The notes under the pieces are model-generated. The model was not told where the DNA came from and ran no database searches. It saw only the letters and a list, made by a program, of their open reading frames with translations. From NCBI GenBank assembly GCA_945905815.1, contig CAMDQH010000019.1, positions 1-46,271 on the forward strand: a stretch of DNA of 46,271 bases, written 5' to 3'. The stretch's first letter is position 1; every line of letters starts with the position of its first letter. Of this stretch, positions 14,563-43,669 are shown in pieces. The DNA comes from Bacteriovorax stolpii. GTDB taxonomy: Bacteria; Bdellovibrionota; Bacteriovoracia; Bacteriovoracales; Bacteriovoracaceae. The position numbers and the translations under genes were made by a program.

Positions 14563-16050
14563 GTGGCCAAAATTATTGTCATCGTCGAGAAACTTAAGGA
14601 CTGGAACTCTTACTATCCCGTTGAACAACTTATGACCCCGCAAGATTACCTTGTTAATTGGGACGAGAGTCTTTATTCATCTAAAATTTCCGATGGCAGA
14701 ATTAAAATTATTAATCTGTGCCGTAACTATAAGTACCAGAGTAACGGTTACTACTGCTCACTTCTTGCAGAGGCCCGTGGTCATTCGGTGATTCCTTCAA
14801 TTAAAGCAATTAATGATCTTAGTAAATCTTTTCTCTATTCATTGCAAACTGAAGATCTGGATCTGGCACTTCAAAAAGCGCTTAAAAATCAGAACTCCGC
14901 AGTCCCATTCACAATCACCATTTACTTTGGGAAAACAGAAAAGGAACCACTTCAAGATGTGGCACGACAGATCTTTGATCTTTTTGCTGCCCCAATTCTT
15001 CACGTGGACTTCATATGGGATAAAAAGTGGGAAATTAAAGCAATTCGAACGGGTAGCCTAAATGCTCTTACCCCGGCCGATGAGGATAAGTTTGCTGGCT
15101 CATTAGATGAATACTCTGCAAAAATCTGGCGTAAACCAAAAACCAAGAAAAAATACCGGTATGATTTGGCCATTTTACACAATCCGTCCGAAGCTATGCC
15201 CCCATCGGATAGAAAAGCACTGGCCAATTTCATTAGGGCCGGAAAAGACAGCGACGTTTTAGTAGAACTAATCGAGAAGAAAGATTACTCGCGGATTGCT
15301 GAATTTGATGCACTATTCATTCGAGAAACAACAGCTATAAATCATCACACTTACCGTTTTGCAAAAAAAGCTGAAGCCGAGGGCCTCATTGTCATAGACG
15401 ATCCCATGTCGATTTTAAGATGTACGAATAAAATCTACATGCATAACTTACTCCAATCAAACAATATTAACACACCCAAGACACTCGTCATAAGTAACAA
15501 TGCAGAACAGCTCAAAGAAGCAGTAGATGAGATTGGCTTTCCGATGATCATTAAAATACCTGACGGATCATTCTCTAAAGGTATTTATAAAGTTAAAACT
15601 TTGGAGGAAATGAAAAAGATAACTGGAGATCTTTTCAAAAAAACTGCACTCCTTCTGGCACAGGAATATTTCTATACCGATTTTGATTGGCGAATTGGCA
15701 TACTCAACGACCGCCCCATTTACGCTTGTAAGTACTACATGACTAAAGGTCACTGGCAAATATACAACCATGATAAAAAAGTAAGCACTGGAATTCAGTC
15801 CGGCGACTCAGAAACTTTCCCTATTTCAAAAGTTCCAAAACACGTTATTTCAACAGCACTTAAAATGTCTCATCAAATTGGCAACAGTCTCTACGGAGTT
15901 GACCTAAAAGAAAAAGATAAGAAAGCATACGTCATTGAAATAAATGATAATCCTAATATTGACGTGGATGTTGAGGACGCAATTGCTGGAATGGACCTCT
16001 ACCATAACATCATTCATGAATTCGTAAGAAGGATTGAGGCGAATAAATGA
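14563..16050 (+). CDS. RimK-family ATP-grasp amide ligase with N-terminal RLAN-type domain
   Basis: The protein (495 residues from the preferred GTG) has an N-terminal domain seen in RimK-like ligases, including LCRNYKYQSNGYYCSLLAEA. A C-terminal ATP-grasp follows (about 290-490). Its ATP-binding loop is PMIIKIPDGSFSKGIYKV and its metal-binding segment EINDNPN. Such enzymes use ATP to join an amino acid, often glutamate, to a carboxylate. I choose GTG 14563, preceded by GGAAGG at 14554-14559, because the family sequence begins there (VAKIIVIVEKLKDW). A 64-codon extension to an ATG at 14371 lies inside the divergent GNAT-C39 gene. The stop codon overlaps the next ATG by four bases, so it is coupled to the aspartoacylase. 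Confidence 0.88.
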   Translation: MAKIIVIVEKLKDWNSYYPVEQLMTPQDYLVNWDESLYSSKISDGRIKIINLCRNYKYQSNGYYCSLLAEARGHSVIPSIKAINDLSKSFLYSLQTEDLDLALQKALKNQNSAVPFTITIYFGKTEKEPLQDVARQIFDLFAAPILHVDFIWDKKWEIKAIRTGSLNALTPADEDKFAGSLDEYSAKIWRKPKTKKKYRYDLAILHNPSEAMPPSDRKALANFIRAGKDSDVLVELIEKKDYSRIAEFDALFIRETTAINHHTYRFAKKAEAEGLIVIDDPMSILRCTNKIYMHNLLQSNNINTPKTLVISNNAEQLKEAVDEIGFPMIIKIPDGSFSKGIYKVKTLEEMKKITGDLFKKTALLLAQEYFYTDFDWRIGILNDRPIYACKYYMTKGHWQIYNHDKKVSTGIQSGDSETFPISKVPKHVISTALKMSHQIGNSLYGVDLKEKDKKAYVIEINDNPNIDVDVEDAIAGMDLYHNIIHEFVRRIEANK

Positions 16051-16886
16051 AGAAGCCTACAAGAGTTGTTATCGTGGGAGGAACTCACGGCAATGAATGG
16101 ACTGGAATTCAAATCGTGCGCCACTATCAGGATTATTTAAAAAATAAATTTCCAAAGCTAGTTCTCGAATTTATTTTTGCTAATCCTGTTGCTCATGAAG
16201 AAAACTCACGTTTCAAAGATGAAGACTTGAACCGTGCCTTTCAGTATTTAGATGAGAAAAGAACTTCCTATGAACATATTCGTGCTCATGAAATTAAGGC
16301 GATTATCGAACGTGAACCTTGCCTGGTATTGGATCTGCACACCACGACTTCTGCTATGGGAAATAGTTTGATCGTTACCAGATACAATTCCCTAAACCTC
16401 TCTTTATGCGCCAAGTTGTCGCAGCAATTCCCAGATTGTCGTGTTATTGGGGCCCCGGATCCGAAATTAAAGTTTCTCGCAAGTCAGTCAGAATTTGGGC
16501 TCATATTAGAGGTTGGTCCCGTGGCAAATAGCGTTGTAGATGCTGTTCCACTGGAATCAACCCTGGCCTTAATAGAGCAAATTTTAGAGGCAATGAGTGA
16601 CTCACAGATCGTTAGCGGTAACTGTGTTGAACTGTATGAGGAAACTCAGGATGTTTATTATCCTCAAGGCGAAAAAGGTGAATTAAATGGCTATATTCAT
16701 TCTGGATTCCAGGGCAAAAACTTCCACCTTTTAAATGGCAAATTTGTCCCTTTTATGACATTTCAAAAAGAGTCAATTGAGATGAAAATTGACGAAGATT
16801 TGTATCCAATTTTTATCAACGAAGCTGCATATTACCCTCAGAAATTGGCCTTTACACTGTGCCGAAAAAAATCGATATCCTACTAA
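16047..16886 (+). CDS. aspartoacylase/succinylglutamate desuccinylase family zinc hydrolase
   Basis: This 279-residue enzyme has the zinc ligands of the M14-related aspartoacylase family: H14 and E17 in GGTHGNE, and H98 in LDLHTTT. The catalytic glutamate is E155 in LEVGP. The substrate-carboxylate motif RFKDEDLNR is typical of enzymes acting on N-acyl-aspartate or similar acidic N-acyl amino acids. Length is close to that of known aspartoacylases. Its start overlaps the ATP-grasp stop (ATGA), so the two are translationally coupled. With the divergent GNAT-C39 gene it could form a make-and-break cycle for an N-acyl amino acid or conjugate. The exact substrate is not readable. Confidence 0.88.
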   Translation: MKKPTRVVIVGGTHGNEWTGIQIVRHYQDYLKNKFPKLVLEFIFANPVAHEENSRFKDEDLNRAFQYLDEKRTSYEHIRAHEIKAIIEREPCLVLDLHTTTSAMGNSLIVTRYNSLNLSLCAKLSQQFPDCRVIGAPDPKLKFLASQSEFGLILEVGPVANSVVDAVPLESTLALIEQILEAMSDSQIVSGNCVELYEETQDVYYPQGEKGELNGYIHSGFQGKNFHLLNGKFVPFMTFQKESIEMKIDEDLYPIFINEAAYYPQKLAFTLCRKKSISY

Positions 16887-20675: not shown

Positions 20676-23600
20676 ATGGATTCATCCCAATTCTCATCTA
20701 ACCTTTTAGATGATCATTATTTTGCCAATGAAGTATTAGGTATCGAACGACTTGAGGCACTTGCAACTTCGTTTGCTAAAGAGCTTAAAACGATGTGGCC
20801 TTCAGGCAAAGGAATAAATCTTTTGCCCCAAATGAAGAAATCATCCGACGAATTACTGGAAGCATATCTCTATCTCACAAAAAGTATCTCAGGCCAAAAC
20901 TTAAAGCCCGCTACAGAGTGGTTCTTGGATAATTATCACATCATTGAAGACCAACTAAGAAGTATTAAAAGGGATTTGCCAAAAAACTTTTATGACGAAT
21001 TACCTAAAATAAGTGAAGGTGCTTTTTCAGGTTACCCGCGTGTTTATGCAATTGCTTACACCTATGTCTTGAAAACGGACTCAAGATTAGACACTGAATC
21101 TATTAAAAAATTCGTGAAGACATTTCAAGAAGTAACACCACTAGCGATTGGGGAATTATGGGCAATAGCTATTACGTTTAGGATCTCTCTGATTAAAAGG
21201 CTTGGGCCTCTTGTAGAAAGTATTATCTTTGATACTCAAAAAAGAGCTGAGGCCGACTTACTTGCGGATAAACTTTTAGAGCATGCTACGAAAAGAGAAA
21301 GTAAGCCCGCACAACTAATTAAAATTTTGGTAGCGGGACTAAACCAACAAGTAAAATCCAATAGACCTTTCTTTGTCCAACTTATCCAACGTCTTCGTGA
21401 TCAGGATCCAAGTGTGTCTAGTGCTTTTGATCATCTTGAAAAAATGCTCCAATCTTATCAAACAAATGCTAGTGAAATTGTAGGTCAAGAACATTACAGG
21501 CAAGCTGCAACTCAGGTGACCATTGGAAATATTATTTCAAGCATGAGGCTCTTATCCAAAATAGACTGGCATGATTTTTTTGAGAGCGTAAGCTTGGTAG
21601 ACCCAATACTATGCAATGACCCAATAGGTGCTTACGGAAAGATGGATAAGGCCACACGTGACTCTTATCGCAAAGTCATAGAACGTATCGCAAAACATTC
21701 CAAGCACTCAGAAATTCAAGTTGCCCAAAAAACGATTGAATGTGCTACCAATCAAATTTCTCATGCCCCTGAGGATTTAAGAAAAAAGCACATAGGCCAT
21801 TACCTTTTAGATGATGGCGTTTTTGAACTTGAAAGAAAACTAGATTATAAATCTCCACTTGCCGAAAAAATAAGCCGCTTTATTGACGAAGATCCTACCT
21901 ATATCTATTTCGGGTTTCTATTTTTGCTAATGGTAACTTTTATTTCAATTATATTAAAAATTTTTCAAAGAGCAGATCAAAGCACATTCGAAGTTTATAT
22001 GATTGTTTTACTTATCACTTTACCAATTAGTGACCTATCTCTATCTGTTTTAAATTTCTCATTAACTCTAATGAGACTTCCAAAGCGGCTACCTCGAATG
22101 GAAACTGAAAAAGGGATACAGGAATGTGACTCTTCAATGGTTATTGTCCCATGCCTCCTGACGAGCCACGCCATAGTTCAGGAATTAGTAAATAATCTTG
22201 AAGTTCAATTTCTGGCCAATCAGGACCCACATATTTATTTTGCGATTCTCGGGGACTTAGGAGACGCAAAAAATGAAACGACTGATAGAGATAAAGACTT
22301 GCTGTATTTAGCAAAAAAAGGGATAGAAGATTTAAACCATCGATATAGTAAAAACCTCAATCCTCGTTTTTATTTTTTCCACCGGGCCAGACTATATAAT
22401 GCATCAGAAGAAAAGTGGATTTGCTGGGAAAGAAAGCGTGGAAAGATCATTGAATTTAACCGCCTACTCCGCGGTAATACAACAACGAGCTATATAAATA
22501 GTGAGATTGATTTTGATTTTCTTAAAAAAATCAAATACGTCATTACTTTGGATGCTGATACACAGTTACCACTACAAAATGCCAGACGCCTAATAGGGAC
22601 AATTACTCACCCATTGAATTTACCTATCTACGACCCCGAAAAAAATCGGATATGTAAGGGTTACGCAATACTGCAACCTCGTATCAGCGTTTCAATGGTA
22701 TCCGCCGTAAAGACTCGGTTTGCTCGAATTTTTTCAGGAAATACGGGAATTGATCCCTACACCACCGCCATCTCTGACGTATATCAGGACCTCTTTAATG
22801 AAGGAAGTTTCACAGGAAAGGGTCTTTATGTCGTAGATGCATTTGAAAAAGTTATTGGTGAAAGAATTCCAGAAAACTGTGTATTAAGTCATGATCTTTT
22901 AGAAGGCAGTTATGCTAGAGTTGGCCTTACAACTGACCTGGAGCTTATTGATGACTATCCCTTAAATTTTGAAATTTTTGCAAAACGAATGCACCGATGG
23001 ACAAGAGGCGATTGGCAGATTGCCATATGGTTGTTGCCTTGGGTGCCAAATAGTAAAAATCAATGGGTGCGAAACAATTTACCTCTGATAGCTCGTTGGA
23101 AAATTTTTGACAACTTACGCAGAAGCCTCCTGACTCCAACGCTTCTGCTTTGGCTACTTTTGAGTTGGACATACTTAAAAGGCAATCCAGTGGCATGGAC
23201 CCTCGTTATTATTATTGCCATGAGTTTCCCAGTCTACGCTCCTTCAATTAGTGATCTTTTTAGACGACATGAAAGTACTTGGCGTGAACATTTAAAAACC
23301 TGCCTTTGGGAAATTGAGAATCGTTTAAAACAAATTTTTATGATGCTCATATTCATGCCATCCATGGCGGTGGATCAGGTTGATGCTATCGTTAGATCAT
23401 TGTATCGAATGTTGATATCAAAAAAACATCTTCTGGAATGGGTTACTTTCTCGCAGTCTCAATTGCAAAGCCAAGCTGAATTTGGATGGAAAGAACTCCT
23501 TACAAATGGTCCCCTTTTTTCTATTGCGACGACATTGCTGCTCTACTTTATTAAACCTTCCTCACTCTACGTTGCTTCACCATTTCTTATTGCATGGGCC

Positions 23601-26600
23601 CTTTCACCTATTGTGTCAAGATTGACGAAGCAAAGGATAAAACCTAAAGATACGCCACTAGATCAAGAGGAAGTAAAACTTTATCGTCGCTATGCTCGAA
23701 TAACATGGTGCTTTTTCGAAACTTTTGCAAATGAAGAAAATAATTGGCTTGCACCAGATAATTTTCAAGAAGACCCTGTCCCAGTCGTGGCGAATCGTAC
23801 GTCTCCTACAAATATTGGACTTCAGTTATTATCAACCCTTTCAGCATTTGACTTAGGTTATATAGGCTTTCGTAAAATGATTGAAATCTTAGAAAAAGTC
23901 ATTGATTCTCTCGGTAAACTAGAACGAATGAATGGACACTTTTATAACTGGTATAATACCCACGATTTAACTCCGTTAAAACCTCGCTATATCTCATCAG
24001 TTGATAGTGGTAATCTGGCGGGCCATTTAATTGTAATAAAACAAGCATGTTTAAAATTAAGTGAAGGGCCTTATGTAAACCCGCATATCTGTCTTGGCCT
24101 CAGGGACTGTTTAAATATATTATTGGACCATATTGAAGAGCATCAGAAAAATCCACAGAAAACCCATCAAAGTTCTTTTAAAAAAATAATACTACAGATA
24201 CATGAGTTGAGTCGTTCATTAGAGAATGCCACTTGTAAAAAAGTTATTGAACAATTGAAAGAAACTGAAAGTTTACTTCATGAACTAATTCCCGAAGAAG
24301 ATTCAAAGGTCAATAAGTGGATAAAGATCACACTCAACCAAGCATTGTCCTTTCAGGCCGATGAACTAGGATCGCATACAGATTTACCTGAAAGATTGAA
24401 TAAAATAGCAACGAAGTGTCAGGCCATATATCTTGAAATGGACTTTCACTTCCTGTTTGACGAAGAAAGAAAAATATTCTCGATCGGTTTTAATGCAACT
24501 GAAGGAAGAAGAGATGATTCTTACTATGATCTTCTCGCTTCGGAATCCAGACTCACCAGTTTTTTTGCCATCGCGAAAGGAGACGTACCAGATGACCATT
24601 GGTTTCGATTGGGTCGCAGCCTTACCAACGTATCAGGGAGTCGTGCACTCATTTCTTGGAGTGCAACCATGTTCGAGTATTTGATGCCCTTACTTGTTAT
24701 GAGACGTTACGAAGGAACGCTTCTTGATCAAACTTATGATGCTGTTGTTTTAAGACAAATTGAATATGGTGAACAACGCCAGATCCCCTGGGGAGTTTCA
24801 GAGTCAGGATACTATGCCAGGGATTTAAATTTTAATTATCAGTATGGCCCATTTGGCATACCAGGGCTTGGCCTTAAAAGGGGATTACGTGATGAATTAG
24901 TTGTTTCACCGTACTCTACCATGCTAGCGGCAATGGTAGCACCTCGAAAGGCACTTGCGAATCTGCTTCGATTGGAAAAAATGGATGTTTTAGGAACTTT
25001 TGGGTTCTATGAATCTATAGATTATACACCTGGTAGACTTCCTAAAAATAAAAAATCGGTTATTCTAAAATCCTACATGGCCCATCATCAAGGCATGAGT
25101 TTAATTTCAATAAATAATTTGTTAAATAAATCAATTATGCAGCGAAGATTTCACGCAGAACCAAGAGTTAAGGCGGTACAACTTTTATTGCAAGAAAGAA
25201 TCCCGGTCATTCCACAAATTGCCAAACCTCGTGCCGAGGAGACACATATTGAAAGCTTTTCCAGATTCAGTGATACTTTTCACACTCGAATCTATACCGA
25301 CCCGTCACTATCAACACCGAGAACACAGATCATCTCAAATGGTAACTATTCTCTTATGATGTCGACGGTCGGATCTGGATTTTCAAAATGCGAAGAAAGA
25401 ATGGTAACGCGTTGGAAAGAAGATTCAACCCTGGATAATTGGGGACAATTTATCTACATTAAAAATATGGAGAGTCAAAAAACCTGGTCGGCAGGATTTC
25501 AACCTATAGGAGGTAAACCTAGAAATTATGAAGCTCATTTTTCTGAAAGTAAAATTGAATTTTTCAGACAAGACAATGATGTTTCAACTCATACTGAAGT
25601 TATTGTATCTTCTGAGGACAATGTGGAGATGCGGCAGGTCTCTCTTACTAATAATTCTAATCTTACAATCGAGATTGAGGTTACAAGCTATATGGAAGTA
25701 ACCCTCGCAAAGGCAGCTGATGATGCTGCTCATCCTGCCTTTAGTAACCTTTTTATTCAAACTGAGTTTTGTGCAGAAACTGAATCTCTCCTTGCCAATC
25801 GCCGTTTACGTTCAAAAGGTGAGACTGGCATTTGGGGCCTGCATCTATCAACTGTAATAGGTGATGTTGTTGGTAAACTTCAATATGAGACTGATAGAAA
25901 CCGTTTTCTTGGCCGTGGTAGGAGTATTAAGAATCCTATCGTTATGACCAATGAAATTGAGCTCTCTAATACCGTAGGGGCCGTACTTGATCCCGTTTTT
26001 TCTTTAAGGAGGCGTGTACGAATTAAGCCACGTCAAACAGCTCGCATTATTTTTACTACCGGATTAGTTTATACAAGAGAGGAAGCGCTTAGGGTTATTG
26101 AGAAATATCATGATCCAAATATTTTCCTACGTCAGACAAATCTGGGCTGGGTAAAAAATCAGATTGAACTTCGCCACTTAAATATTTCAATGGAAAAGGC
26201 CCACATTTATCAGCGTCTCGGTGGTCGAATTCTTTATCTAGCCCCCTATCTAAGGGCACAGTCTGAAGTTCTCATCTCCAACATTAAAAATCAATCAGCA
26301 CTCTGGGCCTATGGTATAAGCGGGGATATACCTATTCTTCTCACACGCATCCAAGATGAAAAAGACATGGAAATGATCAGAGAACTTCTCAGGTGCCATG
26401 AATATTTAAGATTAAAAGGGTTGAAAATTGATCTCGTAATCCTAAATGAGCACGCAACAAGCTATATGCAACATTTACAAGATGAACTCATGAGACAAAT
26501 TCTTATCAGTGGGTTTCATTCACTTCTGGATAAACCAGGAGGTATTTTTATCAGAAGGGCAGATATTATTCCGGCCGAGGATCTGGTATTAATTAAAGCT

Positions 26601-29135
26601 GTGGCGCGAGTCAGTCTATATGCTAACAAGGGAACGCTTGTAGATCAATTGAGAAGGAGGCCTCTCGAGCAGGAACCACCTCCCCGTTTCATCCCTACTG
26701 TCCAAAAGAAAGATTATCCCCATATTCCATTTGTTCGTCCTCAACTAGAATTTTTCAATGGACTGGGTGGTTTTACAGCTGATGGACATGAATATGTAAT
26801 TACTCTTACAGCTGAACAATGGACTCCAGCTCCATGGATCAACGTCGTGGCCAATAAAAAAGATTTTGGGTTTATTATATCGGAATCAGGACAAGGTTAT
26901 ACTTGGTCACTTAACAGTCGAGAAAATCGACTATCTTCTTGGTCTAATGATCCAGTTACTGATCCTTCTTCAGAAGCAATATATATCCGAGATGAAGAAA
27001 GTGGTGCCTTTTGGTCTCCAACTCCCCTTCCTATTAGAGGCCCTCAAAGTTATGTGATAAGACACGGCCAGGGCTACAGCGATTTTTTGCATGATTCACA
27101 TGGAATTTCACATCATATGAAGGTTTTTGTTCCTTTAAATGATTCTGTAAAAATCATTAAATTAAAATTAAAAAATGTGGGTGATAAGACAAGAAAACTA
27201 TCCATTACAAGTTACATTGACTGGGTACTAGGTTTTTCAAGAACACATTCCGCACAAACACTAACTACTTTTTGGGATGACAATGCCCATGCTATTTTTG
27301 CTAAAAACACTTACAACAACGAGTTTGCCCAAAGGGTCGCATTTCTAACCAGTAGCGAAGACAATAATTCTTTTACCTGTGACAGAAAAGAATTCATCGG
27401 CCGAAACGGCAGCATGGCAAATCCCGCCGCACTTAATAGAACAAATTTGGGCAACAAATCCGGAGGTAGATTTGATCCATGTGGCGCAATTCAATCAAGC
27501 TTTGACTTGAAACCAAATACTGAAAGAGAAATTATTATTCTTATTGGTCAAGGTGAGAATGAAGAGGAGGCCAGGCACTTATCAGAATTTTATCAAATCT
27601 CAGAGAACGCAAACAATGCATTACTTGCAGTAAATAACTATTGGAATGAAACTCTTGGCACACTAACTATTAAAACTCCTGATGCTTCAATGAATATGCT
27701 GGTTAATCGCTGGCTTCTTTATCAAACGCTTGCCTGTAGAATTTGGGCACGCACTGCCTTCTACCAATCTGGAGGGGCCTTCGGGTACCGAGATCAATTA
27801 CAAGATGTAATGGCGATGGTTTATTCTCATCCAGAAATCACGAGGGACCAAATCAAATTGGCAGCATCAAGGCAATTCCACGAGGGTGATGTCCAGCATT
27901 GGTGGCATCCACCAACCGGCCGTGGGGTACGGACTCGATTTTCCGATGATTTATTATGGCTTCCCTTTGTTGTAAATTATTACATCGAAGTTACAGGTGA
28001 TTATTCTATTCTAGATGAAGTCGTTCCCTACATAGAAACGCCCATCCTTGATGAAGGAAATGATGAAACCTATACCCAACCGATCTTTTCAAAAGAAATG
28101 GGAACTGTTTTTGAACACTGCTCACGTGCCATAGACAGAAGTCTTAAAGTTGGTGACAACGGTCTTCCTCTCATGGGGTCCGGTGACTGGAACGATGGAA
28201 TGAGTCGAGTCGGTCATCATGGAAAAGGTGAAAGTGTTTGGCTTGCATGGTTTTTAATAAAAACACTAAGAGGCTTTATACCATTGTGTGATTTTAAAAA
28301 TGATATTACTCAATCTGAAAAATATATTGTTAATGTAGTAAAACTGAAAAACGCAGTAGAAAACAACGCTTGGGATGGTGAATGGTACCTTCGTGCATTT
28401 TTTGATAATGGCGATAAAATGGGCTCTCATTTAAGTGAAGAATGCAAAATTGATTCTATTGCGCAGTCTTGGTCACTCTTATCTGGTGAAGGTAATCAAG
28501 AGAGAAGTAAAAAATCCCTTGAATCTGTGAATAAATTTTTAATAGATCGTGATGAAAAAATCATTAAACTTTTTACGCCTCCTTTTGATAAGAGCTCACA
28601 AGATCCTGGCTACATTAAAGGTTATCTACCAGGTGTAAGAGAAAATGGCGGCCAGTACACCCATGCTGCTATCTGGACCATGATGGCCTATGCTGCTCTC
28701 AAAGATGGTCAAACTGCTACCGAAATCTTTTCGATGATCAATCCAATTAATCGTTCAGCAACACTAACTGGATTACAAAAATACAAAGTTGAACCTTACG
28801 TCATTGCGGCAGATATCTATGGTGTTTATCCACATGTTGGGCGGGGCGGATGGAGTTGGTACACTGGATCGGCGAGCTGGATGTATCGAGCGGCTATCGA
28901 ATCCATCCTGGGATTTAAACTGCATCAAAATAAACTTACTATCCAGCCTTGTATTCCCAAAGAATGGGATAATTTTGAAATCACCTATCATAAAGGGAAA
29001 GCACACTTCAAGATTACTGTACTGAATAATAAATCAGAAACCTCAATAGAAGTAGATGGTGTCATGATCGTCGGAAATCAAATTCCGATTCTTAGTGATG
29101 ACATAGAGCATCAAGTGGTCATCAAGCTGGGTTAA
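20676..29135 (+). CDS. ndvB: NdvB/ChvB-type cyclic beta-glucan synthase
   Basis: At 2819 residues this matches the giant cyclic beta-1,2-glucan synthases (about 2800-2870). These build, cyclise and trim periplasmic glucan rings. The N-terminal cytoplasmic region (1-400) is followed by membrane segments at about 408-430 and 437-465. A GT84 glycosyltransferase domain comes next, with VITLDADTQLP at about 621 and RMHRWTRGDWQ at about 771, then more membrane segments at about 810-860 and 950-985. A glycoamylase-like region includes MAHHQGMSL. The C-terminal GH94 phosphorylase half has YRDQLQDVMA near 2370 and GSGDWNDGMSRVG near 2501, including the catalytic Asp. It stands alone. Linkage type cannot be read from sequence. 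Confidence 0.93.
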   Translation: MDSSQFSSNLLDDHYFANEVLGIERLEALATSFAKELKTMWPSGKGINLLPQMKKSSDELLEAYLYLTKSISGQNLKPATEWFLDNYHIIEDQLRSIKRDLPKNFYDELPKISEGAFSGYPRVYAIAYTYVLKTDSRLDTESIKKFVKTFQEVTPLAIGELWAIAITFRISLIKRLGPLVESIIFDTQKRAEADLLADKLLEHATKRESKPAQLIKILVAGLNQQVKSNRPFFVQLIQRLRDQDPSVSSAFDHLEKMLQSYQTNASEIVGQEHYRQAATQVTIGNIISSMRLLSKIDWHDFFESVSLVDPILCNDPIGAYGKMDKATRDSYRKVIERIAKHSKHSEIQVAQKTIECATNQISHAPEDLRKKHIGHYLLDDGVFELERKLDYKSPLAEKISRFIDEDPTYIYFGFLFLLMVTFISIILKIFQRADQSTFEVYMIVLLITLPISDLSLSVLNFSLTLMRLPKRLPRMETEKGIQECDSSMVIVPCLLTSHAIVQELVNNLEVQFLANQDPHIYFAILGDLGDAKNETTDRDKDLLYLAKKGIEDLNHRYSKNLNPRFYFFHRARLYNASEEKWICWERKRGKIIEFNRLLRGNTTTSYINSEIDFDFLKKIKYVITLDADTQLPLQNARRLIGTITHPLNLPIYDPEKNRICKGYAILQPRISVSMVSAVKTRFARIFSGNTGIDPYTTAISDVYQDLFNEGSFTGKGLYVVDAFEKVIGERIPENCVLSHDLLEGSYARVGLTTDLELIDDYPLNFEIFAKRMHRWTRGDWQIAIWLLPWVPNSKNQWVRNNLPLIARWKIFDNLRRSLLTPTLLLWLLLSWTYLKGNPVAWTLVIIIAMSFPVYAPSISDLFRRHESTWREHLKTCLWEIENRLKQIFMMLIFMPSMAVDQVDAIVRSLYRMLISKKHLLEWVTFSQSQLQSQAEFGWKELLTNGPLFSIATTLLLYFIKPSSLYVASPFLIAWALSPIVSRLTKQRIKPKDTPLDQEEVKLYRRYARITWCFFETFANEENNWLAPDNFQEDPVPVVANRTSPTNIGLQLLSTLSAFDLGYIGFRKMIEILEKVIDSLGKLERMNGHFYNWYNTHDLTPLKPRYISSVDSGNLAGHLIVIKQACLKLSEGPYVNPHICLGLRDCLNILLDHIEEHQKNPQKTHQSSFKKIILQIHELSRSLENATCKKVIEQLKETESLLHELIPEEDSKVNKWIKITLNQALSFQADELGSHTDLPERLNKIATKCQAIYLEMDFHFLFDEERKIFSIGFNATEGRRDDSYYDLLASESRLTSFFAIAKGDVPDDHWFRLGRSLTNVSGSRALISWSATMFEYLMPLLVMRRYEGTLLDQTYDAVVLRQIEYGEQRQIPWGVSESGYYARDLNFNYQYGPFGIPGLGLKRGLRDELVVSPYSTMLAAMVAPRKALANLLRLEKMDVLGTFGFYESIDYTPGRLPKNKKSVILKSYMAHHQGMSLISINNLLNKSIMQRRFHAEPRVKAVQLLLQERIPVIPQIAKPRAEETHIESFSRFSDTFHTRIYTDPSLSTPRTQIISNGNYSLMMSTVGSGFSKCEERMVTRWKEDSTLDNWGQFIYIKNMESQKTWSAGFQPIGGKPRNYEAHFSESKIEFFRQDNDVSTHTEVIVSSEDNVEMRQVSLTNNSNLTIEIEVTSYMEVTLAKAADDAAHPAFSNLFIQTEFCAETESLLANRRLRSKGETGIWGLHLSTVIGDVVGKLQYETDRNRFLGRGRSIKNPIVMTNEIELSNTVGAVLDPVFSLRRRVRIKPRQTARIIFTTGLVYTREEALRVIEKYHDPNIFLRQTNLGWVKNQIELRHLNISMEKAHIYQRLGGRILYLAPYLRAQSEVLISNIKNQSALWAYGISGDIPILLTRIQDEKDMEMIRELLRCHEYLRLKGLKIDLVILNEHATSYMQHLQDELMRQILISGFHSLLDKPGGIFIRRADIIPAEDLVLIKAVARVSLYANKGTLVDQLRRRPLEQEPPPRFIPTVQKKDYPHIPFVRPQLEFFNGLGGFTADGHEYVITLTAEQWTPAPWINVVANKKDFGFIISESGQGYTWSLNSRENRLSSWSNDPVTDPSSEAIYIRDEESGAFWSPTPLPIRGPQSYVIRHGQGYSDFLHDSHGISHHMKVFVPLNDSVKIIKLKLKNVGDKTRKLSITSYIDWVLGFSRTHSAQTLTTFWDDNAHAIFAKNTYNNEFAQRVAFLTSSEDNNSFTCDRKEFIGRNGSMANPAALNRTNLGNKSGGRFDPCGAIQSSFDLKPNTEREIIILIGQGENEEEARHLSEFYQISENANNALLAVNNYWNETLGTLTIKTPDASMNMLVNRWLLYQTLACRIWARTAFYQSGGAFGYRDQLQDVMAMVYSHPEITRDQIKLAASRQFHEGDVQHWWHPPTGRGVRTRFSDDLLWLPFVVNYYIEVTGDYSILDEVVPYIETPILDEGNDETYTQPIFSKEMGTVFEHCSRAIDRSLKVGDNGLPLMGSGDWNDGMSRVGHHGKGESVWLAWFLIKTLRGFIPLCDFKNDITQSEKYIVNVVKLKNAVENNAWDGEWYLRAFFDNGDKMGSHLSEECKIDSIAQSWSLLSGEGNQERSKKSLESVNKFLIDRDEKIIKLFTPPFDKSSQDPGYIKGYLPGVRENGGQYTHAAIWTMMAYAALKDGQTATEIFSMINPINRSATLTGLQKYKVEPYVIAADIYGVYPHVGRGGWSWYTGSASWMYRAAIESILGFKLHQNKLTIQPCIPKEWDNFEITYHKGKAHFKITVLNNKSETSIEVDGVMIVGNQIPILSDDIEHQVVIKLG

Positions 29136-29248: not shown

Positions 29249-31486
29249 ATGCAACCTTTCAGAAAGCTAAAAAACCAGTTCGGAATAGGATTACTGGAAA
29301 TCATGGTCGCTATTGGACTTACAGGTGGATTGGCATTGACTATTTCCAAGGTGATGCAAAATTTTCAGCAAGAAGCCAAACAAGTTGAATCAAAAAGAGA
29401 AAGTATAAATTTGAAAGGTTTGATACAAGATACTCTAAATAATACTACGGCCTGTCAGTATACATTTTCAGGGGTAACTGCGGCACAGTGGACGAGTTTA
29501 GCAGGGAGTTCCACTTATTCTGTTACTCTTCCCAGCGTGAAAGATAAATTGAATGAGATTAAATATTCTACAACCTCGACAGATATTAATCCACTCACTA
29601 TTAAGAGCTTATCGTTAACCAATTATAATTCAGGTCTTCTTACAGGTGACTTTATCATCCAATCTACTTTTAGAAGATCCTCTACAATAACCCAAGTGGT
29701 GAAGCCAATAAAAATTCCCATAAATTTTACGTTCACTGGGACTACATTATCAGCTTGTTCAACAATGGCCTTTGGTGGTGAATGGATGCTTGGAGGTAAC
29801 GCCGGAACAGTTGCAGGAACTGATTATATCGGAACTTCAGATTCTAAAGATTTTGTTTTTAAAACAAATGCCACCGAAAGAGCGAGATTTACCGTCAGTG
29901 GTAATTTGGGGATTGGGACGACGACACCAACTGAAAAGCTTCACGTCTTTGGTGGAAGAGCAATTATAGATGGTTTAACAACTGGCACTCAAACAGTGTT
30001 TAAGGTGATGAACAGTAATAGCGGAACAACAAGACTTGGATTTCAAGCAACAACTGACTCAGTCATTGGTTATCAAAGCAAATTGAGAATTGGAGTTGTG
30101 GCAGCCGATAATGCCGCACTAACCGTTGATACCATGATGCTTGATAACTCTGGCAACGTCGGGATCGGAACGACAGCGCCTTCAAATCTTCTGTCTCTAG
30201 GTGGCCAGACAGCGCGAATTATCGCCATGGAAAGAAATACAACTGCGGCTACAGGAGGGCAGGGATTAACAATAAGTTCAGGCGGAGCAATAGCAGGAAC
30301 CGCAAATTTGGCAGGAGGAGATTTAACATTAAGATCGGGAATTGCAACAGGTACAGGCTCTTCTGCTATGCGCTTTTTCACAGCAACAGCAGGAGCAACT
30401 GCTACAACTGATAGAACAGCAACTGAAAAAATGACGATTCTGGGAAGTGGCAACGTCGGAGTAGGAACAATTGCACCTACTTTGAAAGGACATTTTGTTA
30501 CAGCTTCAACTAATGACGGAGTCATGATTGAACAAACTGGGACAACCGCTGCTGCCTTAAGACTTAAGCAAACCGGCGGTTCTGGCCATGATTGGGCACT
30601 TTTAAGTTTGGGCACAGGAAACTCGCAACTTGAAGGCACAATGGAACTTTATGACTATTCAGGAATAGGGACAGTCATGGGGTTAAATGGAACTGTCGGT
30701 AGCGTTGGTATTCGCGGAGCAGCTCCTTCAACGGCGCTTTCAGGAAGTAACGACGAGGTGATGAGAGTTCATGGAAGCGTTAAACTGCAAGGGTACTATG
30801 TAAATAGTGTTGGAATACTTTTTGGTAACGATACAAATCAGAAAGGCCAAATTCGTTTTTGGCAAATGAACGCTGGGAACCCTTATTGGACGATCGGGGA
30901 ATTCATTGGGGCCGGAACCTACCCTGCGCATGCGGGTTTGGTGGTCACACCGGATAATGCTTATGGTTTTGGAGCTTGGCCAGGTGTTACCACAACTAAG
31001 GCCTACATCATAGATGGTAAAGGATATTCCAATGGTGGTGCCGGTTGGGGAACTTCTTCAGATGGAAGGTTGAAGAGGAATATTGAAGAATTTAGTGGAG
31101 CTTTAAGTAAAATTAATCTCCTCAGACCAGTAAGATATGAGTGGATTAATAAATCGTTGCACGACAATCGTGAGAATGAATATGGCTTTATTGCCCAAGA
31201 TGTTGAAAAGTATTTTCCCGATTGGGTTACCCACATAAAATTAAAAGATGGGATAAAAGGGAAAAAGAATGCGGACAGCTTATTGATTCCAGAGGGTGAA
31301 AAAACGAAGCATTTATCTTTGACCATGAGTTTTAATGCTTTTGTAGTTAAAGCAATTCAAGAGTTAGATGAGAAGTTTAATAAAAATCATGATTCAACAG
31401 AAAATCAGATAAATGACCTTCAGGCAGAAAACAAAGAACTCAGAGACAGATTGGCTAAAATTGAAAAAATGCTGGATAACAAATAA
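29249..31486 (+). CDS. prepilin-like/tail-fibre chimera with S74 autoprocessing domain
   Basis: The 745-residue protein joins three parts. Residues 1-40 are a type IV prepilin signal: cleavage after G12, Glu at +5 (E17), then a hydrophobic helix. The middle has tail-fibre-like beta repeats marked by GNLGIGTTTP (about 219), GNVGIGTTAP (about 300) and GNVGVGTIAP (about 400). Residues about 600-720 are a peptidase S74 chaperone domain. S604-D605 and K609 have the Ser-x4-Lys spacing of the self-cleaving dyad, then YGFIAQDVEKYFPDW. The C-terminus is a coiled coil. S74 domains trimerise phage fibres and cut themselves off, so this is probably a trimeric surface fibre or adhesin. How pilin export and trimerisation fit together is unclear. 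Confidence 0.85.
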   Translation: MQPFRKLKNQFGIGLLEIMVAIGLTGGLALTISKVMQNFQQEAKQVESKRESINLKGLIQDTLNNTTACQYTFSGVTAAQWTSLAGSSTYSVTLPSVKDKLNEIKYSTTSTDINPLTIKSLSLTNYNSGLLTGDFIIQSTFRRSSTITQVVKPIKIPINFTFTGTTLSACSTMAFGGEWMLGGNAGTVAGTDYIGTSDSKDFVFKTNATERARFTVSGNLGIGTTTPTEKLHVFGGRAIIDGLTTGTQTVFKVMNSNSGTTRLGFQATTDSVIGYQSKLRIGVVAADNAALTVDTMMLDNSGNVGIGTTAPSNLLSLGGQTARIIAMERNTTAATGGQGLTISSGGAIAGTANLAGGDLTLRSGIATGTGSSAMRFFTATAGATATTDRTATEKMTILGSGNVGVGTIAPTLKGHFVTASTNDGVMIEQTGTTAAALRLKQTGGSGHDWALLSLGTGNSQLEGTMELYDYSGIGTVMGLNGTVGSVGIRGAAPSTALSGSNDEVMRVHGSVKLQGYYVNSVGILFGNDTNQKGQIRFWQMNAGNPYWTIGEFIGAGTYPAHAGLVVTPDNAYGFGAWPGVTTTKAYIIDGKGYSNGGAGWGTSSDGRLKRNIEEFSGALSKINLLRPVRYEWINKSLHDNRENEYGFIAQDVEKYFPDWVTHIKLKDGIKGKKNADSLLIPEGEKTKHLSLTMSFNAFVVKAIQELDEKFNKNHDSTENQINDLQAENKELRDRLAKIEKMLDNK

Positions 31487-40297: not shown

Positions 40298-43200
40298 CTA
40301 TTTTATTGGACTATAAAGACGAGGTTTTTTGAAAGTGATCACAATATTTCCCCCGTCACTTTCATTAATGTAATGCACTTGATCCCTATCTATCTCGATC
40401 TTGAAATCACGAATATTTCCCAAGTCAGCTTTAAGATCCTTAATTTTAAAAATTTGCTCACGATAATTATGAACATTAACCACAACGTCTTTAGTGCCTC
40501 CCAAATTCGAAAAACGAATCTTCTGAGCACCAATACCGTCTAAAACCAAAAAAGAATTGTCGTTTACATTTTTTGGCAAGGATAACTGCAAAACAAGCTT
40601 GCCAGCATTAATGTGCCCTGGAACGAAGGGAACCAAATGAGATGAATCAATGAACTGTTTCACATCCGAAAGTTCGCTCGAAGCTAGTAAACGATGTCTC
40701 ATTCCTTGAATAGTATCAAAAACAAATTCAATCTCATTTTTTAAACCTAAGTGAGTTAAATATGTGGCTTCAATTTTTACAAACCTTTCTGCAACTTTTA
40801 AGTCAAAAACAGTCGACTGATTGGGCAAAAGCTCTTCAATCTCTAAAACTTGTCCTTGGATAATGAAAACAAGATTTTTAAGAGAAAAACTTCTACGGTT
40901 GAAAAACTCTAACTTACCAAATCCTAGATATTTAAAATCAAGGTCGGATAAGATGGTACTTAAATGATTGAGTTCTTCTTTAGGTTTATTATCAACATCC
41001 CAAAACCCCCTCATATCATCGGGCATTTCATTATTAAAAGGGTCATTGTATCCAACGGGAACAGGCTGGGCCCAATTATCGTGAGATTGAAAAAAAGCTG
41101 CACCCAAGGCACCTTTGTCTAAAAGATTTTGCCAGTTTTCATAAAGACGATGGATTCTCAAAAACGTTGGTGTCTGTTCAAAGAATGCCACGAAGCCACC
41201 AAACTCACTTGCGTAAAAAGGTATATTTAAACTTTTGATATGATTTACACCATCTTTCCAGTAAACGTCCCCAGAGTCGAGCATGTTGACTCCAAGGATA
41301 TCGACAGGATATTTTATGTAGGTATTGTAAGTAGAGTAAGAAATGGGATACCGATAATAAGGTTCGTCGTGAATTCTCTCCAAACTTTTTGAAATGTTAA
41401 TAATGCTTTTATAATGATCATCATTTATTTCTAACTCGTTTCCGAGGTGATCAAAAAAGAGATAAGGATTTCCGTCTGTCTGGTCAACGTGCTCCTCATA
41501 TCTTTGCATTAACAGTTTGACGCTAGAATCTTTACTCATCTTAATGTTGGACCAAGTTGTCTCATCAGGCTGAGATATAATCAGTAGCTGATTGATTCGT
41601 GCCTGTTCTAACAAGTCTTCGGTGGGACTATGATAAACCCTAATACAGTTTGCTCCGGCCCTTTTTATTTGCCTAAGACCTTCTGAAAGACTTAAGTTAA
41701 TTTTTGAAGTACTAAAAGATGGAATGATACATTTTATCAAAAAGGGATCACCATTTACGAGAAGTTGACCTTGGCGAATTTCTTTGACGGAATTACTAAA
41801 TTTTCTATTTTGCACACAGCTGAAACCATTGACTTCGATCTCAGAGGTCACAAGCTCAGTTCCCCACCCCATATTTCCAACATGCTCAACAATTGTAGTT
41901 TTATCGCTAAGATTACCTTTGTATATGGTCTTTCCATTAACAGAAAGCTTTAAGCTGCGCTCATAATCCTCGACGTCCCCTTCAATATGATTCGTGATAT
42001 TTAAAAGATACTTCCCTTGCTCTATTGATTTTAGCCTCAGAAACATCCGTGAATAGAACGGAGGAGCTGTTTCAAATAAAATATATTTTCCAAAGAAGTA
42101 CTTTGGCTCTCCGCAATTATGAAAAACTAAAAAGTCATTCGCTAAAATAACTAAAGCAACAGAGATGGGTCCAAGGATGACGGCATAAAACTTTCTGACA
42201 CTTAATCTTTTCTTATTCGTATTTTCTGAAATACTTTGAGGAACAATAGATGAGTCAACCATATTGCTTCGATTAACTTTGCCCCATTTTTTATTGTTAA
42301 AAACTAGATCAAAAAAACCTAAGGTGCCACTAAAAAGATCAACCACAAGAACGAAAGGATAAAAAAAGATATGTGAATAAAATACTCCAAGAGATGGATA
42401 TTTATAAAGCCTTCTGCCACAGACTAGTACCAGGATTGGCGCCAGAACCATACAAAGATTTACCCAAAACAAGGGTTTAGAATAGGGAAAAGAAATAACC
42501 TGGTAATAAACCTCATGTTGATGAAACTTATAAATATAAACGGATACGAGGCTAATATAAGGGAAGAAAACAAGCACCCCTACAGCGGACTCATATATAA
42601 GATCTTTTATTGAGCTAAATCTTAGAATACCAATACTTACCGAAATGAAAATCGTTAAGCCAAGGCAAAAAGCTTGGACGTTATTGGTATATTGTAAAAA
42701 ATAATAAATACCAACGATATCTAAAAGACCAACAATCATTATTGGCAAAAAATAATATCCACCGTGGAGTAACATTTGAGCTTTTTGTTTTAGACCAACA
42801 TCTAAAGTAAGGATTTTCTTAAAATAATAAAAGAAAGTCTGGTTATGCCCATTGCTCCAGCGCCTCCTCCTTGCAATGTAACTTGAAAGATCAGGGGCAA
42901 CTTCCTCGTAGGAGCCAAAGTATGGATTGTACCCAATTTTCTTGCCCGAAACAATAAGCTCATAGGACAAAAAAGTATCTTCAGTCAATGAGTTTGGAAA
43001 CAACTTATTTTTTAATGCGGAGGCCTTAAAAACGCATGTAGTGCCGGTAAAAAAAGTATTTATTTTTAGTCTTCTATAAAGAGCATTGAATACTTCATTA
43101 CCAATATGGTTTTGAAGTGAATCCCACACTTGAAAGAAAGTTGAAATGGCAAGAGGCCGTCGCACCGACTGTACGACATCGTGTCCTTCATTGCCAGACA

Positions 43201-43669
43201 ACGTAATTGATGATGAAAGCCATTGATTATCCGCTCGGTGATCAGCATCTAAAAACGCAATAAAATCCTCGACTAGAGTGGGGAGGATTTTATTTATTTT
43301 TTCTTTTTTCCCTTGTTCACCCGTAAGACAAACATTGATTTTTCTATTCTCAACGTTGGGAAGGCTTTTTAAATACTCATCTAAAAATGGATAGGACGTA
43401 TCGTCCTCATCTTTAATTAACAAATAGATATTTATCTGACCTAAGTAATCTTGAGACAACAATGTCTTTAGAGAATCAATTAATGCTTCACCTTCATTAT
43501 ACGAAGGCACCAAAACTGCAACGCTTCCTTTGTTACTAGCATCAAGATTCTGTAATCCGATCTTGGTAGAAAACAAAAGCGAAAGACAACTTAAGACATA
43601 GCCTATTGAATAAAACAAAAGTATCAAAAGCACGAAAAAATATAAATACAGGCCAATCTTCAGTTCCAT
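40298..43669 (-). CDS. fusion of GT2 glycosyltransferase and GH2-like glycoside hydrolase
   Basis: Residues 1-280 form a membrane GT2 synthase-like domain: a leading helix, DEDD at 87-90, DADH at 141-144, TED at 229-231 and RRRRW at 267-271. More membrane helices follow to about 525. The C-terminal part (about 530-1123), which would face the periplasm, has a GH2-type architecture: beta domain, VNGDPFLIK, then a TIM-barrel with RAGANCIRVYHSP. The acid/base site is E745 in LGNELE and the nucleophile is E822 in YASEFGG. All key residues seem intact. AGGTAGAAG precedes the ATG. The protein may make and trim the same polysaccharide. No close named enzyme is known to me. Confidence 0.85.
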   Translation of the reverse strand: MELKIGLYLYFFVLLILLFYSIGYVLSCLSLLFSTKIGLQNLDASNKGSVAVLVPSYNEGEALIDSLKTLLSQDYLGQINIYLLIKDEDDTSYPFLDEYLKSLPNVENRKINVCLTGEQGKKEKINKILPTLVEDFIAFLDADHRADNQWLSSSITLSGNEGHDVVQSVRRPLAISTFFQVWDSLQNHIGNEVFNALYRRLKINTFFTGTTCVFKASALKNKLFPNSLTEDTFLSYELIVSGKKIGYNPYFGSYEEVAPDLSSYIARRRRWSNGHNQTFFYYFKKILTLDVGLKQKAQMLLHGGYYFLPIMIVGLLDIVGIYYFLQYTNNVQAFCLGLTIFISVSIGILRFSSIKDLIYESAVGVLVFFPYISLVSVYIYKFHQHEVYYQVISFPYSKPLFWVNLCMVLAPILVLVCGRRLYKYPSLGVFYSHIFFYPFVLVVDLFSGTLGFFDLVFNNKKWGKVNRSNMVDSSIVPQSISENTNKKRLSVRKFYAVILGPISVALVILANDFLVFHNCGEPKYFFGKYILFETAPPFYSRMFLRLKSIEQGKYLLNITNHIEGDVEDYERSLKLSVNGKTIYKGNLSDKTTIVEHVGNMGWGTELVTSEIEVNGFSCVQNRKFSNSVKEIRQGQLLVNGDPFLIKCIIPSFSTSKINLSLSEGLRQIKRAGANCIRVYHSPTEDLLEQARINQLLIISQPDETTWSNIKMSKDSSVKLLMQRYEEHVDQTDGNPYLFFDHLGNELEINDDHYKSIINISKSLERIHDEPYYRYPISYSTYNTYIKYPVDILGVNMLDSGDVYWKDGVNHIKSLNIPFYASEFGGFVAFFEQTPTFLRIHRLYENWQNLLDKGALGAAFFQSHDNWAQPVPVGYNDPFNNEMPDDMRGFWDVDNKPKEELNHLSTILSDLDFKYLGFGKLEFFNRRSFSLKNLVFIIQGQVLEIEELLPNQSTVFDLKVAERFVKIEATYLTHLGLKNEIEFVFDTIQGMRHRLLASSELSDVKQFIDSSHLVPFVPGHINAGKLVLQLSLPKNVNDNSFLVLDGIGAQKIRFSNLGGTKDVVVNVHNYREQIFKIKDLKADLGNIRDFKIEIDRDQVHYINESDGGNIVITFKKPRLYSPIK

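Follow-up and report, generated by a model that had tools for sequence, protein, structure and literature searches.

The window, i.e. the whole 46,271-nt stretch of DNA analysed here, encodes at 29249..31486 on the + strand (the strand of all features given below) a 745-residue protein with an ATG start, in which a prepilin leader, a pilin-like module, a fibre and an S74 chaperone follow one another. The gene is genuine and conserved, and it belongs to a class of modular pilins that has been catalogued but not characterised; its fibre resembles the mosaic adhesive trimeric (MAT) fibres of Bdellovibrio bacteriovorus. The reading we favour, with somewhat more than even confidence, is that of a modular minor pilin carrying a MAT-like phage fibre, which would be homotrimeric, matured by S74, placed at the pilus tip and probably an adhesin. 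The architecture, the conserved catalytic residues, the presence of both candidate export machineries in the genome, the recurrence in relatives and the exchange of tips between pilin modules are shown here. The combination of domains is not in itself new; its recurrence, the three anchors on which S74 tips are found and the tip exchange offer a way to test whether pili and prey recognition are connected.

The host assembly comprises 3.0 Mb in 141 contigs, and the nearest named homologues of the protein come from metagenome-assembled genomes of a Bacteriovoracaceae bacterium and of Halobacteriovorax sp. The organism is presumed to be predatory from the lifestyle of its family, which is related to the predatory Bdellovibrio.

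Prepilin leader, pilin-like module and export routes

Residues 1–12 (MQPFRKLKNQFG; 29249..29284) are a class III prepilin leader; the protein has a basic n-region, Gly at −1 (G12), Glu at +5 (E17) and a hydrophobic alpha1-N. The predicted cut after G12 would expose IGLLEIMV as the new N-terminus, and the residues that follow G12 are IGLLEIMVAIGLTGGLAL. A preliminary description of this DNA had proposed just such a leader, and G12 and E17, together with Cys69, are indeed invariant across 25 aligned N-terminal modules. Taken alone, the leader scores 14.5 bits against the N_methyl model PF07963, below the cut-off of 21.2. The search for paralogues sharing the leader, also suggested in that description, was productive: two are found in the same genome, on contigs C33 (40% identity over the N-module) and C83 (38%), and they score 31.9 and 28.6 bits against PF07963, both above the cut-off. 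The C33 paralogue also exceeds the cut-off of TIGR02532 (IV_pilin_GFxxxE; 22.3 vs 16.3). Given these paralogue scores, the invariant G12, E17 and Cys69 and the recurrence in relatives, we judge the leader to be real despite its own weak score.

The pilin-like module occupies residues 13–173 (29285..29767). An AlphaFold2 model built from 36 aligned pilin modules (pLDDT 86.6, pTM 0.75) has a first helix of 49 residues (alpha1, mature residues 3–51) and then a beta-sheet, the order expected of pilins; an earlier model from a shallower alignment had a pLDDT of 69.5. Foldseek searches of the PDB gave no significant match with either model, and the profile of the N-modules reaches TcpA and GspG across alpha1 only, with E between 0.01 and 0.02. 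Judged from the predicted structure, a pilin fold is likely. The same N-module also occurs in a version with no S74 domain, in two prepilin-type proteins of about 421 residues with Cys-rich C-terminal halves on contig C41 (L116:3377-4642 and 15582-16847, genome G000).

Prepilin peptidase PilD is encoded in the same genome, along with PilM and, next to it, a PilQ-type secretin, and so are PilB/PilT-type ATPases with a PilC-like gene, as well as pilin-like genes on C41. There is also an operon that fits a full type II secretion system (T2SS) by gene order and sizes, with GspD, GspE and GspG confirmed by Pfam. Since type IV pilus (T4P) and T2SS sets are both present, the genome alone is compatible with either route.

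The module might accordingly be a T2SS pseudopilin that caps the pseudopilus, its fibre being a periplasmic or briefly exposed tip and not part of a type IV pilus. The T2SS operon with its own pseudopilins and the weak matches of some N-modules to the pseudopilin models gspI (7/25) and gspJ (5/25) would fit this, but we consider it unlikely: the operon already holds a full set of G-to-K-sized pseudopilin genes, the fibre is longer than would be expected of a pseudopilus tip, and the N-modules most often match T4P-type minor pilins (PRK10557 in 18 of 25, ComGE in 16/25, IV_pilin_GFxxxE in 10/25). It is also improbable that the prepilin-like helix is a mere anchor, never entering a filament, for a trimer held on the inner membrane in the periplasm. 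The sub-threshold N_methyl score of the leader and the lack of a PDB match for the fold of the module agree with such an anchor, whereas the residues that PilD and filament assembly depend on (G12 and E17) are the invariant ones, a paralogue passes TIGR02532, and a phage-like tip would be of no obvious use in the periplasm.

Fibre shaft and S74 chaperone

Behind the pilin-like module lies a conserved junction, AFGGEWMLGGNAGTVAGTDYIGTSD (residues 174–198; 29768..29842), near-identical across eight close homologues, and then the variable fibre shaft (residues 199–603; 29843..31057). From residue 195 to residue 603 the protein resembles phage tail fibres in PHROGs. In phmmer searches the fibre matches solved Bdellovibrio MAT fibres (8ond, 6.6e-5; also 8ojn, 8oml and 8ol4), and GNxGIGTxxP-type loops occur at residues 218, 302 and 401, with a weaker one at 486. 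A trimeric surface fibre is likely, as the preliminary description had supposed.

The C-terminal domain had been read there as an S74 chaperone of about 142 residues whose Ser-Lys dyad has the phage spacing, and each part of this was borne out. PF13884 (Peptidase_S74, chaperone of endosialidase) matches residues 604–660 (31058..31228) with 59.6 bits and 3.6e-16, against a cut-off of 22 bits, and the part from S604 to the end is 142 residues long (745 − 604 + 1). The dyad S604-D605-G-R-L-K609 places Ser and Lys at i and i+5 (SDxxxK; codons 31058..31060 and 31073..31075), corresponding to S1264/K1269 of phage T5 (PMC4690869) and S578/K583 of MYRF (PMC3742443). Both residues are invariant in 13 aligned S74 domains and kept in 23/23 prepilin-S74 proteins. 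A profile of the 13 domains matches a long-tail-fibre distal subunit (6f45, 3.8e-16) and further a tail fibre (8jov), MYRF (7dc3) and a neck appendage (3gud). The remainder of the chaperone (31229..31483) includes a helical, coiled-coil-like tail and, from the sequence and alignment, is predicted to leave together with the S74 core.

In phages T5 and K1F the C-terminal chaperone is removed by a cut (PMC4690869; PMC3742443), and S74 cleavage has been shown for the MAT Bd3182, with S782A as the control (PMC10769870). Based on the dyad and these tested homologues, self-cleavage before S604 is likely, the predicted scissile bond being S603–S604. It is not certain, because a counterpart to the T5-type Arg, an oxyanion and folding sensor residue, is missing: in T5, R1250, which lies 14 residues before the Ser, senses correct folding (PMC4690869), and within the 32 residues before S604 we find no Arg but only Lys591 and Lys584. 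The residue in this region is variable across the whole S74 set. The expected polarity of such a cut is the reverse of that first proposed, where the fibre itself was to be released. Since the cut in T5 and K1F takes off the C-terminal chaperone, the fibre would keep its pilin anchor, and the predicted products would be a pilin-anchored fibre and a free 142-residue chaperone.

Known systems and a proposed assembly pathway

A survey from 2021 lists N_methyl + S74 (IPR012902-IPR030392) among the 15 commonest modular-pilin architectures and remarks that the pairing suggests unreported functions (Raynaud et al., PMC8179133). The class has the same domain order as the protein studied here, with the pilin leader N-terminal and S74 behind it, but the survey neither assigns it a function nor reports experiments on it, and takes S74 for a 'peptidase'. 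We instead interpret S74 as the chaperone that serves a MAT-like fibre, in a protein with paralogues and exchanged tips; this provides a likely function, that of a folding chaperone and not a peptidase, for a class that was catalogued and left unexplained. In the literature searched, 'modular pilin' and 'S74' co-occur only in this survey, and we found no paper there that joins MAT fibres to a pilin anchor.

The closest counterpart of the fibre is the S74 subgroup of B. bacteriovorus MATs, such as Bd3182, which are trimeric beta-helical fibres (PMC10769870). Besides the match in fibre sequence, they share with the protein studied here the C-terminal SDxxxK chaperone, which is self-cleaving in the MATs. 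The anchors differ: in MATs a signal peptide precedes a conserved, beta-rich N-domain of about 130 residues (PMC10769870), whereas here a prepilin leader and a pilin-like module take that place, and a sequence check found no SYSGR-type MAT N-domain in the protein. Regarding type IV pili, the authors of the MAT study go no further than mentioning a possible interplay (PMC10769870).

For the anchor, the nearest likeness is one of architecture. CofB and TcpB, homotrimeric minor pilins at the tips of type IVb pili (PMC9565799; PMC8179133), likewise combine a pilin module with C-terminal beta-rich domains, but they have a lectin-like tip, no S74 chaperone and belong to a different family. Together with the 2021 catalogue entry, they show that it was too strong to call pilin-type export and homotrimeric assembly normally separate systems, as had been done initially. 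The fibres of phage T5 (pb1) and of the K1F endosialidase share the Ser(i)-Lys(i+5) S74 domain, which in these phages is removed after trimerisation (PMC4690869); they are phage proteins without a membrane anchor, and the T5 sensor Arg is not found in our protein.

In the mechanism that we propose for the modular minor pilin, the prepilin helix would insert the protein into the inner membrane. In the periplasm the C-terminal S74 domains would bring about folding and trimerisation of the fibre, then be cut off before S604 and leave, as the dyad and the tested homologues suggest. PilD would cleave after G12. By analogy with CofB/TcpB, and with PilB, the pilin module would then become part of a type IV filament, its most likely place being the tip, and the trimeric fibre would thereby be pushed outside the cell, where it may bind a ligand, plausibly a prey-surface glycan. 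A role as an adhesin in prey recognition is plausible. If displayed on a pilus, the fibre would bring together type IV pili and chimeric MAT fibres, which have been studied separately as parts of bacterial predation. It would then act as a modular, retractable tip for recognising prey, and exchanging tips would alter its specificity.

Distribution among relatives and evidence for tip exchange

PF13884 is present in 22/58 relatives searched and in 84/129 genomes of the family. In a set of 72 S74 proteins that have intact 5' ends and come from the relatives, a prepilin leader opens 23 (22 identified by script, plus the protein from the window), and in three others position +5 is Gln or Ala; 26 start with the Sec-type MAT N-domain (SYSGR) and about 10 with a lipobox. 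Because some of the genomes are near relatives, the counts are not independent of one another. The pilin-anchored and Sec-type proteins have disjoint length ranges, 352–837 vs 985–2150 residues. Close relatives of the pilin module itself are rare, occurring in 3/291 genomes of the phylum at E below 1e-20, plus one (G019) among the relatives.

The pilin module is 59–63% identical to those of five close homologues, whose fibres are 25–30% and S74 parts 33–48% identical (44% in L113, over its remaining 32 residues). Similarly, two genes on one contig (L058 and L089) have pilin modules that are 89% identical and S74 parts that are 33% identical. When anchor type is mapped on the S74 tree, at least 15 changes are needed vs a minimum of 2, on a tree that is poorly resolved, and anchor types are still more clustered than shuffled labels. 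The GC content is about 36% in the pilin module, 44–47% in the fibre and 35% at the S74 end. The identity contrasts, the S74 tree and the GC profile are together consistent with fibre tips having been exchanged among pilin modules. We advance more tentatively, and at less than even odds, the wider idea that Bacteriovoracaceae may draw on one pool of exchangeable phage-like S74 tips, mounted on three anchors: the Sec-type MAT domain, a lipoprotein and a type IV minor pilin.

That the gene is a prophage remnant, or an assembly artefact fusing a pilin gene to a tail-fibre gene, is very improbable: S74 and the fibre do match phage tail fibres, but joins of this kind are present in at least 23 proteins from related genomes, including the named metagenome assemblies, the neighbours resemble housekeeping genes, and the best phage match has about 26% identity and begins only at residue 195. 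Misassembly is ruled out by the conservation of the join at residues 174–198 in independent assemblies, and a prophage origin was rejected on that distant phage match and on the window itself, where no phage genes are recognisable by eye.

The gene is solitary in its neighbourhood, outside any pilin operon, which weighs against the favoured minor-pilin reading. Just upstream (window 20676-29135) is an ORF of 2819 residues that by eye resembles a cyclic beta-glucan synthase or phosphorylase (NdvB-like). The two paralogous pilin-module genes, L003 (G000 C33:26290-27805) and L004 (C83:10344-11859), carry YadA-head-like NTAFGYxA repeats, and both run off their contigs at one identical 149-bp stretch, where a repeat broke the assembly. 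Because their C-termini, possibly S74 domains, are missing, the single S74 gene found in this genome may be an undercount.

Some neighbouring genes recur next to pilin-fibre genes. Related small lipoprotein-like genes lie 3' of them in two genomes (L120:11282-12073 and L121:7556-8356), the L120 one having no NCBIfam match. In L004 the gene immediately upstream of the pilin-fibre gene encodes an FHA domain; in L119 and L120 an FHA gene and a large glycosyltransferase are found upstream, and a glycosyltransferase similar to the latter is encoded in the window at 40298-43669.
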